Shown one piece after another: positions 7,250 to 18,599 of a stretch of 32,494 nucleotides of DNA. Position 1 is the first letter of the stretch. Every line of letters starts with the position of its first letter. This stretch comes from a bacterium (GTDB taxonomy: Bacteria; Patescibacteriota; Microgenomatia; Levybacterales; UBA12049): the NCBI GenBank assembly GCA_021824155.1, contig JAKALN010000008.1:1-32494 (forward strand), written 5' to 3'. The notes beneath the pieces were generated by a model. The model had not been told where the DNA came from. It was given only the letters and a program-made list of their open reading frames with translations, and made no database searches. The position numbers were made by a program, and so were the translations under genes.

Positions 7250-7349
7250 CCAAATCCTAATTTCTAATATCTAAATCCTAATATTTTGAATTTTGTTTTT
7301 GAAGAATTGGAAATTATTTGGAATTTAGTGTTTAGGGTTTAGAATTTTA
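7250..7349. repeat. Heptad-periodic inverted array pair
   Basis: Left TAATTTC TAATATC TAAATCC TAATATT; right GGAATTT AGTGTTT AGGGTTT AGAATTT. Confidence 0.75.
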
Positions 7350-8480: not shown

Positions 8481-8481
8481 A

Positions 8482-8599
8482 AATCCTAAATTCAAAGTTC
8501 TAAATTCTAAATAAACCCAAATGCTCAAAATTCAAAGTTTAATATTTTGGTAATTTTAATTTTGAGATTGTTTAGTATTTGGATATTAGTGTTTAGGGT
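8482..8599. repeat. Heptad-periodic inverted array pair
   Basis: Left AATCCTA AATTCAA AGTTCTA AATTCTA; right GTTTAGT ATTTGGA TATTAGT GTTTAGG GTTTATT. Confidence 0.8.
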
Positions 8600-9889
8600 T
8601 TATTGGTTGAGGATTTTATTAATTGCCACAAGGTATGACGCTTCTTTTAAATCCGTTTTATTCTTTTTTGACTGGTCCCATACATTTTCGAATGCGTCCT
8701 GCATCATTTTTTCAAGGCGTTTTAAAACGTCTTCTTTTTTGTATTTTTTATCCTCAACATTTTGTTCCCATTCTATATAGCTTCCCGCGACCCCTCCGGA
8801 GTTGGCTAAAATATCGGGAACTATAATAACCCCTTTTTGAGTCAAATAATGATAAGCCGCGGGGGAAACCGGTCCGTTGGCCATTTCAATTATTATTTTC
8901 GCTTTTATATTTTGCATATTGTTTTCGTTAATAACGTCTTCCAAAGCTGCAGGAATTAGAATATCAACGGGGAGATTGAGCAATTCTTCGTTGGTTATCA
9001 TTTGTCCGCCCCTTGTATCACAAACCCCACCCGCGCAATAGCATCCTGCCAGGCTTCCCTTTTCCTGTTTGCAGTCAAAAACCAGGGGAATATCCAAAGG
9101 AATAAATTCATCCCCTGATTTTTTAACTATTCCTCCTTTTGAATCGGAAACTGCAACTATTTGGAATCCGGCTTTACTTGCAAGTTCGGCAAAATAATAG
9201 CCTACATTTCCAAAGCCCATAACTGCAACGGTTTGTTTTTTTGGTTCAAGTTTCAATTTTCTCGCAAGCTCTTTAAGCACTGTTACACCGCCGAATCCGG
9301 TAGCTTCCGTTCTTCCGCTCAAGCCGTTTTTAGATTTTCCGGTAAATGTTGCAAAAAGTTTATTTAAGGGCGTAGAGCCTTTGCCGTTCATCATAGAGAG
9401 TTTTATATATTCATCTACCATCCAGTCTATTATTTTTGGATTTGTATTTACGTCCGGAGCAGGTACGTCTTTGTCATAACCCAAAACATCGTAAGTTTTA
9501 CGGACATATTCCCTGGATAATTCTTCAAGCTGTTTTTCGCTTAATGCTTTAGGGTCAACGGCAATTCCCCCTTTCCCCCCTCCAAAAGGAATTCCAACGA
9601 CTGCTGTTTTTAAGCTCATCCACAAAGACAAAGCCATAACCTCGTCTTTAGTAACTCCGGGGTGGAATCTTAACCCGCCTTTATATGGGCCCAGATTATT
9701 GTTATGCTGGCTTCTGTAGCCTTTAAAGCTTACCGTTTCGCTGCCGAGCTTAACCGGAACTTTAATTTCGACTATTCTGTCCGGCTGGAGAAATTCTTCC
9801 AATTTATTCTGGGGAATATTATATTTTTTACCTACAGTGAGGATTTCTTCTCTCGACTTATTGTAAACACCCGAATTATCCATAACCAA
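8600..9889 (-). CDS. gdhA: Glu/Leu/Phe/Val dehydrogenase (glutamate dehydrogenase)
   Basis: GPYKGGLRFHPGVTKDEVMALSLWMSLKTAVVGIPFGGGKGGI; VMGFGNVGYYFAE. Confidence 0.93.
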   Translation of the reverse strand: MVMDNSGVYNKSREEILTVGKKYNIPQNKLEEFLQPDRIVEIKVPVKLGSETVSFKGYRSQHNNNLGPYKGGLRFHPGVTKDEVMALSLWMSLKTAVVGIPFGGGKGGIAVDPKALSEKQLEELSREYVRKTYDVLGYDKDVPAPDVNTNPKIIDWMVDEYIKLSMMNGKGSTPLNKLFATFTGKSKNGLSGRTEATGFGGVTVLKELARKLKLEPKKQTVAVMGFGNVGYYFAELASKAGFQIVAVSDSKGGIVKKSGDEFIPLDIPLVFDCKQEKGSLAGCYCAGGVCDTRGGQMITNEELLNLPVDILIPAALEDVINENNMQNIKAKIIIEMANGPVSPAAYHYLTQKGVIIVPDILANSGGVAGSYIEWEQNVEDKKYKKEDVLKRLEKMMQDAFENVWDQSKKNKTDLKEASYLVAINKILNQ

Positions 9890-11503: not shown

Positions 11504-11827
11504 GATACGATTACATTTGAGGAATTCAAAAAAGTTGAAATAAAAATAGGGAAGATACTTTCCGCGGAAAAGGTGGAAAATGCGGATAAACTCTTAAAAC
11601 TTCAGGTCGATTTTGGAGATTTCCAAAGGCAAATAATTTCGGGAATTGCGGAAAGTTTTTCAACAGAAGAACTTGTAGGAAAAAAGCTTCCTTTTATCAT
11701 TAATTTGGAATATAGAAAGTTCAGGGGAGAAGAATCTCAGGGAATGCTTATGGCAATAGATGTTCCTGAAAAAACAGTTCTTCTTATTCCGGAAACGGAT
11801 GTCCCCGAAGGCACGGAAGTAGTCTAA
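11501..11827 (+). CDS. Stand-alone tRNA-binding (EMAP-II/MetRS C-terminal-like) protein
   Basis: FEEFKKVEIKIGKILSAEKVENADKLLKLQVDFG...ISGIAESF...GMLMA. Confidence 0.88.
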   Translation: MDTITFEEFKKVEIKIGKILSAEKVENADKLLKLQVDFGDFQRQIISGIAESFSTEELVGKKLPFIINLEYRKFRGEESQGMLMAIDVPEKTVLLIPETDVPEGTEVV

Positions 11828-12336
11828 AAAGTCTTTTTGTATATAATTTTCCAACCGTTTACGTTTGGATAATCATTCGGATCATTGCGGTTTATATAAA
11901 CATTTCCGATTGTAAATTCGTTTTTAATATCAAGGCTATTAATAATATTAATTCTTTCTTTTTCCGGTAATGTTTTATAGATTAAGCTTAAGTGGGGTTT
12001 GAATGTAGAAAAATCTCTTTGTTCTATTTTTTCCGACAGTGCGTTAAAAAGATCTTTAAAATAATCGTTATTTTCAAATTCTATAAATGCCGTTTTATAA
12101 AAATTTTCACTTTGATTTAGGCCTTTTTTCTTAATTTTAAAGGGTTTAACGTTTGCAAAAATTTCGTCAACAGTTGACTTTAAATTCTCTTCGCCTGCTT
12201 TAACATCAACAAAAAGTGTCAAGTGAGGAATAAAGATAGGGGAATCGTATTTGTTTGCCAAATCTTTAATAATTTTATCAAGATATTCCTTGTCTTTTTT
12301 TCCGGGGACAAACCAAACCGAAAAGCAGTTATCCAT
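11824..12336 (-). CDS. 2H phosphoesterase / 2'-5' RNA ligase family protein
   Basis: Two HxT/S motifs, HLTL and HLSL, in a ~170 aa protein. Confidence 0.8.
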   Translation of the reverse strand: MDNCFSVWFVPGKKDKEYLDKIIKDLANKYDSPIFIPHLTLFVDVKAGEENLKSTVDEIFANVKPFKIKKKGLNQSENFYKTAFIEFENNDYFKDLFNALSEKIEQRDFSTFKPHLSLIYKTLPEKERINIINSLDIKNEFTIGNVYINRNDPNDYPNVNGWKIIYKKTF

Positions 12337-12686
12337 TATTCTATGTATTTTTCTACCATTATAGCAGCTTGAGAGCCTTTTATTCTCATAGCTTCTATGT
12401 CAACTTGAGATAGTCTTTCTTCTCTTGGCCAAGTTTGGAGTTGGTAAAGGTCTTCTGCCGTTACTATTTCTGCTTCTCCGGTTTCAGAATCCCGGGGGAT
12501 AAATGCAATACCTTTACCGGGGTTAAAACCCCAAACCATTTGCGATAGCATTTCCTTTATAGCACCCGAGGAAAAACCGTCTAAAGCCAGGGCTTTGTAT
12601 CTTGTTCTATCGCCCGGTTCGGTTGAACGGAAATGTCTGATTTCGAAAGGAGGTCTTTCGGGCTGTCCCCGCCTGTCTTTTTCCAT
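12336..12686 (-). CDS. Hypothetical protein
   Basis: 116 aa ORF abutting the downstream gene; no recognised family. Confidence 0.6.
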   Translation of the reverse strand: MEKDRRGQPERPPFEIRHFRSTEPGDRTRYKALALDGFSSGAIKEMLSQMVWGFNPGKGIAFIPRDSETGEAEIVTAEDLYQLQTWPREERLSQVDIEAMRIKGSQAAIMVEKYIE

Positions 12687-12747
12687 AAGCTGAGAGTATA
12701 CAATATAGGTTTTAAAAATGCTACAATAATTTTAAGTAAAGCTTAAA

Positions 12748-12807
12748 ATCAAGCTCTAAATATTAATTTCTAAATTCTAAACAATGACAAAAATTCAAAA
12801 TTCAAAG
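12748..12807. repeat. Left heptad arm of the four-helix-bundle element; contains the ORF start codon
   Basis: ATCAAGC TCTAAAT ATTAATT TCTAAAT TCTAAAC AATGACA AAAATTC AAAATTC AAAG. Confidence 0.75.
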
Positions 12808-13140
12808 AAATATGATTTGGAGGAAAGAACTTTAAAATTCGCTAAAGATATTAGAAAATTTCTTCAAGAAATACCCAAATCGGTTATTAATGTAGAAGAT
12901 ATTAAACAATTATTAAGGTCATCTGGCTCGGTAGGCGCAAATTATATTGAGGCAAATGAGTCATTAAGCAAGAAGGATTTCGTAATGAGGGTTAAAATTT
13001 GCAGAAAAGAGGCAAAGGAAACTGAATTTTGGTTAAATTTGATGGATGTTCCAAGATTTGATTCGGAAAGAAGACAGTTATTGGAGGAAGCAATAGAGCT
13101 AAGAAAAATTTTTGGTGCTATAATTGAAAAGTCTAAATGA
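12784..13140 (+). CDS. Four-helix-bundle protein (23S rRNA intervening-sequence protein / Avd-like)
   Basis: 118 aa; LKFAKDIRKFLQEIPKSVINVEDIKQLLRSSGSVGANYIEANESLSKKDFVMRVKICRKEAKETEFWL is typical of the family. Confidence 0.93.
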   Translation: MTKIQNSKKYDLEERTLKFAKDIRKFLQEIPKSVINVEDIKQLLRSSGSVGANYIEANESLSKKDFVMRVKICRKEAKETEFWLNLMDVPRFDSERRQLLEEAIELRKIFGAIIEKSK

Positions 13141-13192
13141 TTAAAAAATTTGAATTTATTTAGGATTTAGATATTAGAAATTAGAATTTTAT
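13141..13192. repeat. Right heptad arm of the four-helix-bundle element
   Basis: TTTATTT AGGATTT AGATATT AGAAATT AGAATTT. Confidence 0.75.
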
Positions 13193-14986: not shown

Positions 14987-15889
14987 ATGAGAATTATTGT
15001 TGCACATACATCGCCCGATATGGATGCAATTACATCCATCTGGCTTATAAAAAAATTTTTACCGGGTTGGGAAGACGCGGATGTACAGTTTGTTCCCGCG
15101 GGTGAGTCAATGGGAAGGATCCCGCAGTCCGGTTTAAAACTTACCGATCCCGTGGAAAAAATGGGCAGAAATTTGGTTATTCACGTTGATACCGGATTAG
15201 GTCCCTTAGACCACCATCAGACCTCAAGTGACAAAGTCTGCGCCGCAAGCCTGACTTTTGATTATGTGATTAAGGTTATGAACGAAAATATTCCCGCAAT
15301 GAACGATGACAAATTTGAAGCCCTAAAAAGAATTGTTGATGTAGTTGTACAGGTGGACCATTTTAAGGAAGTTTTCTGGAGCGAACCGACGGCAGATTAC
15401 CATGAATTTTCAATAGTAGGAATTTTGGAAGGATTAAAGCTTGAAAAGCCGGATAACGATAAATATTATGTAGATTTTGTAATAACAGCGTTGGACGCGC
15501 TTTTACACCAATTCGAAAATAGGATTTGGGCGGAAAAAGAAATAAAAGAAAATGGGGTCGAATTTGCAACCCGTCTGGGAAAAGCTATTGCTTTTGAAAC
15601 AATTAACGACTCGGTTATTAAACTCGCCCAAAAAATGGGTTATTACCTTGTTATAAGGAAAGACCCCAGAAAAGGTTATGTCAGAATAAAGGCAAGGCCG
15701 ACAAAACAAGGGGAAAAGGCCGCAGATTTAACATTGATTTACGAAAAACTAAGAAAGATTGACCCGGAAGCTACCTGGTTTTTGCATATATCCAAAAAAA
15801 TGCTTTTAAACGGGACTGTAAAGAATCCAAAAATGAGACCGACAAAACTGAGTTTGAGTGATATAATAGAAGTACTAAAGTCAATTTAG
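14987..15889 (+). CDS. DHH-superfamily/MYG1-like phosphohydrolase
   Basis: AHTSPDMDAITSIWLIKKF; HVDTGLGPLDHHQTSSDKVCAASL metal-binding motifs. Confidence 0.65.
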   Translation: MRIIVAHTSPDMDAITSIWLIKKFLPGWEDADVQFVPAGESMGRIPQSGLKLTDPVEKMGRNLVIHVDTGLGPLDHHQTSSDKVCAASLTFDYVIKVMNENIPAMNDDKFEALKRIVDVVVQVDHFKEVFWSEPTADYHEFSIVGILEGLKLEKPDNDKYYVDFVITALDALLHQFENRIWAEKEIKENGVEFATRLGKAIAFETINDSVIKLAQKMGYYLVIRKDPRKGYVRIKARPTKQGEKAADLTLIYEKLRKIDPEATWFLHISKKMLLNGTVKNPKMRPTKLSLSDIIEVLKSI

Positions 15890-15941
15890 AATTCATAATT
15901 TATAATTCAGAATTATTCTGAACTCTAGATTCTAAATTATT
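15890..15941. repeat. Heptad array abutting the HIT gene start
   Basis: AATTCAT AATTTAT AATTCAG AATTATT then CTAGATTCTAAATTATT. Confidence 0.7.
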
Positions 15942-16864: not shown

Positions 16865-16994
16865 AAATGCTAAATCCTAAGCACCAAATCCTAAATAAGC
16901 TTTAATGCTCAAAATCCTAAGGAGATGGCTTTAGTATTTGAGAAATTGAGATTTGTTTAGAGTTTAGATATTAGAAATTAGAGTTTATATAAAA
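16865..16994. repeat. Heptad-periodic inverted array pair
   Basis: Left TGCTAAA TCCTAAG CACCAAA TCCTAAA; right GTTTAGA GTTTAGA TATTAGA AATTAGA GTTTATA. Confidence 0.8.
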
Positions 16995-16995
16995 T

Positions 16996-18513
16996 ATGGT
17001 TTTTTACAGAAAATACAGGCCCCAAAAAATAGAAGAATTAGACAGCGATGCCGTTAGGGAAAGCATTTATTCAGCTTTTTCAGGCAACTCTTTTACACAC
17101 GCTTTTCTTTTTACCGGACCAAAAGGTCTTGGAAAAACCTCAACAGCAAGAATTGTTGCTAAAGTAATTAATTGCGAAAAACATAATATTGAAAAAAAAC
17201 ACAAAACCAGGGAAGAAATAGAACCATGTAACAAATGCGAAGAATGTGTTTCCATTACAAACGGAAACAACATGGACGTTTTGGAAATTGACGGAGCATC
17301 AAACAGAGGAATTGACGAGATAAGGGATTTAAGGGATAAAGTAAAACTCGCCCCTTTTAAAGCAAAAAGAAAAGTTTACATAATTGACGAAGTGCACATG
17401 TTAACAACGGAAGCTTTTAACGCTTTATTAAAAACTCTTGAAGAGCCTCCGGCTCACGTTGTTTTTATTTTTTGCACAACAGAACCTCATAAAATTCCGG
17501 CAACCATTCTTTCCCGCTGTTTTCAGGTAATGTTTAAAAAGGCAACGGAAGAAGAGCTTACAAGGTCTTTCCAAAGAATTGTAAAGGCGGAAAAAGTCGA
17601 AGCCAATAAAGAAGGTTTGGCTGCAATAGCCCATTTGTCGGAAGGAAGTTTTAGAGACGGTGCAAAAATTCTTGAAGAAATGGTCCTTCTGTCAAACGGG
17701 AAACCTATAACAAAAGAATTGGTAGAGAAAAAATACAAACTTACAAATGTAGATTCCCAGGTGAATCAAATGCTTTCTTTTCTTAAGGAGAAAAATCAGG
17801 AAAAAGCTTTTAAACTTGTTTCCAATTTAGTGGAAAGCGGAGTAGACATTAAATATTTTCTGGAAAAATTGATAAATGGTTTACATATGCATTTACTCAA
17901 AAAAGTCGGTATTTTAGAAAATGAAGAACAGACAGAAGAGTTTGAAATACACGAAATAAAAAAACTTATGGATTTATTTTCAAAAGCATATTTAGATACA
18001 AAATTTGCAGTTTTGGAACAGATGCCGTTGGAGTTGGCAATAGTGGAATGGACAAGCGAAGATGATGTTTTCGGTCAAAAACCACACATTTTAGGTGACG
18101 CTCGCCAGAGTAACACCGATGAAAAAACAGATACCCGCTCGCTAAACGAAAGCCTTTCTAAAAGCTCGGATAATAAAACAACCTTACAGGCGACGGCTTT
18201 CGATTCTTCCCTTGTCAAGCAAGCGGGCTCCTTCGTCCGCCCTAAAAGTGGACTTTCTCCCTCAAACATTACAAAATTGGATAAATTATTTGGGGAGTTA
18301 ATAGAAAAAGTTAATTTGCATAACCGTTCCGTTGCCGGAGTTTTAAGAGGCTGCTCGATAGAAAGTTTCAACGGAAAGAAGCTGACAATAGAAACAAGCT
18401 ATAAATTCCATAAAGAAAAACTGGAAGAAAGTAAAACGAAAAAAATAATAGAAGATGTAATGCTGGAAATTACCGGAGATAGAGCTATAATATCAGTAAT
18501 ACTAAAATCTTAA
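16996..18513 (+). CDS. dnaX: DNA polymerase III subunit gamma/tau
   Basis: FYRKYRPQKIEEL; GPKGLGKTSTARIVAK; Cys cluster; YIIDEVHMLTTEAFNALLKTLEEPPAHVVFIF. Confidence 0.96.
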   Translation: MVFYRKYRPQKIEELDSDAVRESIYSAFSGNSFTHAFLFTGPKGLGKTSTARIVAKVINCEKHNIEKKHKTREEIEPCNKCEECVSITNGNNMDVLEIDGASNRGIDEIRDLRDKVKLAPFKAKRKVYIIDEVHMLTTEAFNALLKTLEEPPAHVVFIFCTTEPHKIPATILSRCFQVMFKKATEEELTRSFQRIVKAEKVEANKEGLAAIAHLSEGSFRDGAKILEEMVLLSNGKPITKELVEKKYKLTNVDSQVNQMLSFLKEKNQEKAFKLVSNLVESGVDIKYFLEKLINGLHMHLLKKVGILENEEQTEEFEIHEIKKLMDLFSKAYLDTKFAVLEQMPLELAIVEWTSEDDVFGQKPHILGDARQSNTDEKTDTRSLNESLSKSSDNKTTLQATAFDSSLVKQAGSFVRPKSGLSPSNITKLDKLFGELIEKVNLHNRSVAGVLRGCSIESFNGKKLTIETSYKFHKEKLEESKTKKIIEDVMLEITGDRAIISVILKS

Positions 18514-18599
18514 GCACTAATTTCTAAATTCTAAATAATATCAAATGTTCAAAATTCAAAATGTTTAGGATTTAGTTATTAGGATTTAGAGTTTAATTT
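18513..18599. repeat. Heptad-periodic array
   Basis: CACTAAT TTCTAAA TTCTAAA ... TTTAGGA TTTAGTT ATTAGGA TTTAGAG. Confidence 0.8.

Follow-up and report, generated by a model that had tools for sequence, protein, structure and literature searches.

Proteins of the family PF05635 (23S_rRNA_IVP; four-helix bundles, hereafter fhb) have reportedly been known since work on the intervening sequences (IVSs) of 23S rRNA in 1993, without a function. For the heptamer repeats of many bacteria there has, to our knowledge, been no explanation so far. Closest to the locus analysed here are the 23S rRNA IVSs, with which it has in common the protein family and the arrangement of an ORF between complementary ends. 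The IVS of Coxiella has tandem heptamers (GACAGAT) before its ORF (PMC4990558), IVP ORFs are known inside the 16S and 23S genes of CPR bacteria (PMC11270868), and genes of the family have been counted among those of cas loci (PMC3936711). Heptamer repeats, intergenic, in tandem and some of them in inverted pairs, have been described in Xanthomonas and Nostoc, in Beggiatoaceae (TAACTGA) and, as paired sites, in Geobacter metallireducens (PMC4692102, PMC4679880, PMC2700814). We found no link to fhb in these three papers, nor, in the open-access literature searched, any previous report that connects fhb genes with heptad arrays. Here, in contrast, the arrays bound fhb genes, including one in Nostoc (L273). 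This gives both the protein and the repeats a testable role, with the binding site of each protein predicted from its own flanks, and points to a hitherto unrecognised kind of mobile DNA that spans many bacterial phyla.

Three other systems resemble the locus in part. As in REP/RAYT, one gene lies between inverted repeats and the repeats are dispersed gene-free (here the hairpin families HP1 and HP2, whose ends match those of fhb elements). However, the RAYT protein is a Y1 transposase, whereas we found no match to PF01797 in our genome (G000) or in its congener (G001), and here tandem heptads form the ends. MITEs are likewise short, multicopy, gene-less intergenic units with terminal inverted repeats, derived from a larger element (compare the 20 copies of HP1), but here the ends match those of fhb elements, the apparent parent carrying fhb in place of a transposase, and there is no target-site duplication (no excess at 2–9 nt over cross-pairs). 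The Avd protein of diversity-generating retroelements (DGRs) is a structural relative of PF05635 (PMC10053308), but no reverse transcriptase (PF00078) was found in G000, which is 99.5% complete. The search for enzymes covered only PF00078 (in G000) and PF01797 (in both genomes), and on these results no known enzyme can be named. The DGR-like mechanism with a reverse transcriptase in cis, to which the initial annotation alluded, thus found no support and was rejected, as was a RAYT/Y1 mechanism.

The window, i.e., the whole stretch of 32,494 nucleotides that was analysed, belongs to the ca. 814 kb genome G000. Its fhb gene (12784..13140, plus strand, 118 aa) matches PF05635 with an E-value of 2.9e-13, the type of S23/IVP ORF found in 23S rRNA IVSs, and PDB 2RLD is a homologue of the protein (E 1.4e-11). 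The left arm, made of CTAAnnn units (12755..12806, plus strand), extends across the start codon and forms an inverted repeat with 13166-13189, within the right arm (13140..13189, minus strand). These complementary ends, also an IVS feature, comprise 24 nt at 12758-12781 and 13166-13189 that are 83% complementary, inside a longer 46-nt pair at 74%. A profile of the gene-less HP2 copies described below matches both arms, the left at 12755-12843 (E 1.4e-9, a value somewhat flattered by the inclusion of this arm in the last profile round) and the right, which was not included, at 13140-13189 on the minus strand (E 8.5e-5). That the gene is nested in a pair of heptad arrays and that the left arm runs into the ORF had both been proposed in the initial annotation, and both stand, the HP2 match continuing past the start codon and into the beginning of the ORF. 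Low complexity, an objection raised there, is not the explanation of the arm matches, since order-1 Markov random sequence gave an E-value of 0.83 at best. The element differs from 23S IVSs in its location, upstream of proS in a window with no rRNA match; most of the loci that we have seen also lie between protein genes. By dN/dS, fhb proteins appear to be under purifying selection, with dS near or past saturation (dN 0.27 and dS 2.34, near saturation, between the window protein and its relative in genome G072). The reading that we prefer, and consider probable, is that of a small mobile element with inverted 7-nt arrays as ends, fhb as sole gene and gene-less MITE-like derivatives, in which an fhb oligomer would read the heptads and join the ends.

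All six PF05635 genes of G000 appear, on inspection of their flanks, to be enclosed by inverted heptad arrays, each with a different heptad. The sixth (L006, C28:15876-16175) has an internal TAA, and the G001 site is without fhb. We scored 114 fhb loci in two sets, 35 in the GTDB family and 79 further ones from named genomes; 52 were non-CPR (Bacteroidota, Nitrospirota, Planctomycetota, Pseudomonadota, Bacillota, Chloroflexota, and others). For the 35, the local score of cognate inverted arms was 20.5, against 10.5 for non-cognate arms, 11.1 for direct ones and 8.7 for the outer control, and the inverted cognate score was much the same in the 79 further loci (20.0 vs. 9.6) and in the non-CPR ones (20.1 vs. 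9.4). Seven was the best period in 80% of upstream and 71% of downstream flanks in the family (6 and 9% in controls) and in 69% of both flanks of the non-CPR loci (11 and 8%). Across the two sets, period 7 was seen in 69–89% of flanks against 0–12% in controls; some 20 to 33% of flanks are without a clear period 7. Both arrays were clear at 72 loci, 65 of them inverted and 7 direct, with a median arm of 4.7 heptads. Inverted heptad arrays are therefore present at fhb genes both in relatives of G000 and in other phyla.

Several bacteria have an excess of heptameric repeats, for which polymerase slippage has been proposed (PMC4692102), and some of our arrays consist of perfect repeats (L267, L274). 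One might then see in the heptads simple repeats made by slippage, among which fhb lies by chance or because of AT-rich low complexity. The cognate inverted arms, like the exact ends that the hairpins have in common (see below), already contradict this; besides, period 7 stands out against all other periods, the profile E-values are far beyond those of randomised sequence, and the same is seen at GC-rich loci. We consider slippage very improbable indeed, and a low-complexity artefact was rejected by the randomised sequence and other-period controls. In cyanobacterial plasmids, fhb was seen between ribonucleotide reductase genes (L273, Nostoc) and, with direct arms, between cas6 and cas4 (L274). 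A tblastn search for fhb in phages gave no match.

The gene-less units had been taken at first for single heptad arrays. The heptads are there, and the blocks quoted after rseP and after dnaX are both present, but the units are near-palindromic hairpins of ca. 90–120 nt. Copies without the ORF but bounded by the same ends, sought as a check, turned up as multicopy families; the analysis covered ca. 691 kb of the 814 kb of G000 and 752 kb of G001. In the 691 kb of G000, HP1 comprises 20 gene-less near-palindromic copies of 111–188 nt, mostly about 119 nt, whose ends read TTGA...TCAA; a further copy, 493 nt long (L038:12585-13077), holds an fhb gene between the same ends. The HP1 copies are ca. 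72% alike (median), which argues against recent activity. The second family, HP2, has ca. 11 gene-less copies, and its parent is the window fhb, both of whose arms its profile matches. Four of these copies are in the window: between frr and rseP (7252..7347, profile E 8.8e-13), after rseP (8481..8600, E 3.4e-24), before dnaX (16865..16986, E 9e-23) and, with 90 nt, between dnaX and the next gene (18505..18594, E 6.4e-14). The right arm of the fhb element matches the block before dnaX at 23 of 24 positions, as had been pointed out from the start. Among long hairpins, 28 of 36 in G000 are built of heptads against 1 of 4 in G001 (29 of 37 vs. 2 of 5 with a slightly wider cut). A third type of gene-less hairpin, with AATTCAG-like heptads, was seen at 15879-15930 in the window and elsewhere (L042:13375-13455, L055:1290-1378).

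The position of these copies could suggest something other than movement. No HP1 copy lies inside a called ORF and most are no more than ca. 10 nt away from a start or stop codon; at the rplJ-rplL junction, an HP1 hairpin (L055:14847-14959) even gives rplJ its stop codon (TGA, in the first heptad of the element). Hairpins and arms might be RNA control or processing elements, such as intergenic RNase III-type sites, that fhb binds and that arise locally. Along these lines, the copies lie in operons a few nt from start and stop codons, HP1 and HP2 RNAs fold well (z from −2 to −7; in the window −3.1 at 7252..7347, −5.6 at 8481..8600 and −4.3 at 18505..18594), and RNase III cuts the terminal stem of the 23S IVS (PMC4990558). 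Against this, HP1 copies at unrelated sites have exact ends in common across 119 nt, and the folding of the fhb element as a whole is unremarkable (z −0.97). Moreover, in the alignment of 16 HP1 copies, TNGA recurs every 7 nt through the arm and is mirrored as TCNA, while the variable positions form only 99 Watson-Crick pairs between the arms, compared with 140 when shuffled (500 of 500 shuffles were higher), the opposite of what selection for a stem would give. The HP2 copies lean weakly the same way (p 0.067). A stem kept by compensatory change was accordingly rejected, and we regard the RNA-element explanation as quite improbable. The HP1 pattern may instead reflect sequence-specific recognition of the heptads combined with avoidance of a perfect palindrome.

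If the hairpins have moved, sites without them should exist in relatives, and such empty sites were sought as a check and found both in the congener G001 and in the fhb-free genome G067. G001 is syntenic with G000, ca. 76% of the nucleotides being identical. It lacks several of the G000 hairpins, and the clearest case lies between two genes for ribosomal proteins (L055:12604-12701), which in G001 are separated by no more than stop-ATAT-ATG; in the window, the junction after dnaX is without insert and no heptad hairpin was seen after rseP. Other G001 sites hold a different heptad hairpin or array (e.g., rplJ-rplL), and before dnaX there is a different inverted-repeat sequence. In G067, five of these junctions are without insert, among them frr-rseP, and rplJ and rplL adjoin each other tightly; this speaks for gain in the lineage that bears fhb. 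An intact fhb is absent from G001, but an internally deleted element of the HP1 type (L068:7471-7609) has retained its arms and the initial codons of an fhb gene like that of locus L002. Dispersal is well supported; mobility as such we infer from presence and absence and from the copy families. The earlier idea of a stem-plus-ORF mobile unit with MITE-like ORF-less copies is supported by the fhb flanks, the empty sites and the multicopy ORF-less families taken together.

The window locus is less informative when compared with G001 alone, as a whole segment (11826..13182) comprising two minus-strand genes and the fhb element is absent there: G001 (L114) aligns to window position 11826 and resumes at 13182, with ca. 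26 nt between. Insertion of the element and loss of three genes cannot be told apart at this site. The two minus-strand genes adjoining the element occupy 11824-12686, and this larger segment may itself have moved or been lost.

If fhb acts on the arrays, the heptads should follow the protein. Per 100 kb, heptad arrays numbered 26.8, 15.2, 12.2, 7.0, 0 and 0 in genomes with 11, 8, 6, 0 plus a relic (G001), 0 and 0 fhb genes, an association over six sampled genomes that is confounded by kinship; G001 keeps heptad arrays without an intact fhb. In G000, G005 and G072, the heptad core matches the resident fhb of the L005 type (CTAA, CAAA and CGAA, respectively); CAAA and CGAA are the heptads of the window protein's relatives in G005 and G072 and also the cores enriched in these two genomes. 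Between genomes, protein identity and heptad similarity are correlated (Mantel r 0.45, 0 of 2000 permutations higher), whereas the heptads of genes within one genome are no more alike than those of different genomes. Three loci were left out of this test: L145@3995 (a partial second copy), L137@14131 (a weak hit that adjoins another kind of repeat) and L161@12348 (a duplicate of L015). In three non-CPR genomes with GTGA-type fhb arms, we counted 14, 62 and 152 GTGAnnn matches against 0, 0 and 3 for period 8, these being overlapping pattern matches and not array numbers. An extreme heptad load was seen in a Flavobacterium MAG (G077, the genome of L265), with 1232 overlapping matches to GTGAnnn x4 against 118.

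This co-variation bears on a further possibility, that the units are moved by a trans-acting enzyme encoded elsewhere, a transposase or a reverse transcriptase, with fhb as a passenger or accessory. In its favour, fhb has no catalytic domain and is known to be related to Avd, the partner of a reverse transcriptase (PMC10053308). However, PF00078 and PF01797 are both absent from this nearly complete genome, heptads track the fhb family and not the genome, and it is fhb that recurs as the gene between the arms. We find the trans-acting enzyme unlikely, although the most serious of these rivals. The fhb-heptad link suggests a dispersal of DNA for which no recognised transposase has so far been found in the genome.

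Under the preferred mobile-element reading, an fhb oligomer would recognise its own heptad on each arm (TNGA in HP1, CTAA in HP2) and bring both ends together, after which the unit would be copied or inserted into intergenic sites, the catalyst being a host enzyme or a novel activity of fhb. Gene-less hairpins would keep both ends, lose the gene and spread as MITE-like derivatives, and copies would persist because they are located between genes, beside start and stop codons. We infer in this scheme the binding of heptads by fhb, its driving of the dispersal and the catalytic step. The oligomer may be five-fold, as the solved relatives 2GSC and 2RLD have five chains each and 2GSC is described as five four-helix bundles in a title cited in PMC3936711. 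An arm of the window element is only ca. 4–5 heptads long, and this length prompted the hypothesis of one heptad per fhb subunit. More tentatively, and with chances that we would put somewhat below even, there could be a bacteria-wide class of elements moved or copied by a five-fold, non-enzymatic-looking fhb with one heptad per subunit, of which the rRNA IVSs would be a special case and which would be the source of many unexplained heptamer repeats. The 23S_rRNA_IVP genes of cas loci (PMC3936711) may be such insertions.

We found no description in the literature of gene-less derivatives or heptad-coded ends for IVSs. In G005, a heptad-armed fhb element (L147:10890-11532) lies inside a 16S rRNA gene, in its 5' part. 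The Rfam match of this stretch reaches 38.5 bits, under the gathering score of 50, since the gene is both truncated at the contig end and interrupted; conserved 16S sequence can be read by eye on both sides. Together with the IVP ORFs of CPR rRNA genes (PMC11270868) and the Coxiella heptamers (PMC4990558), this suggests that IVSs are this same element at a special location. Further along the same 16S gene, a second, gene-less HP2-like array is found at the contig end.
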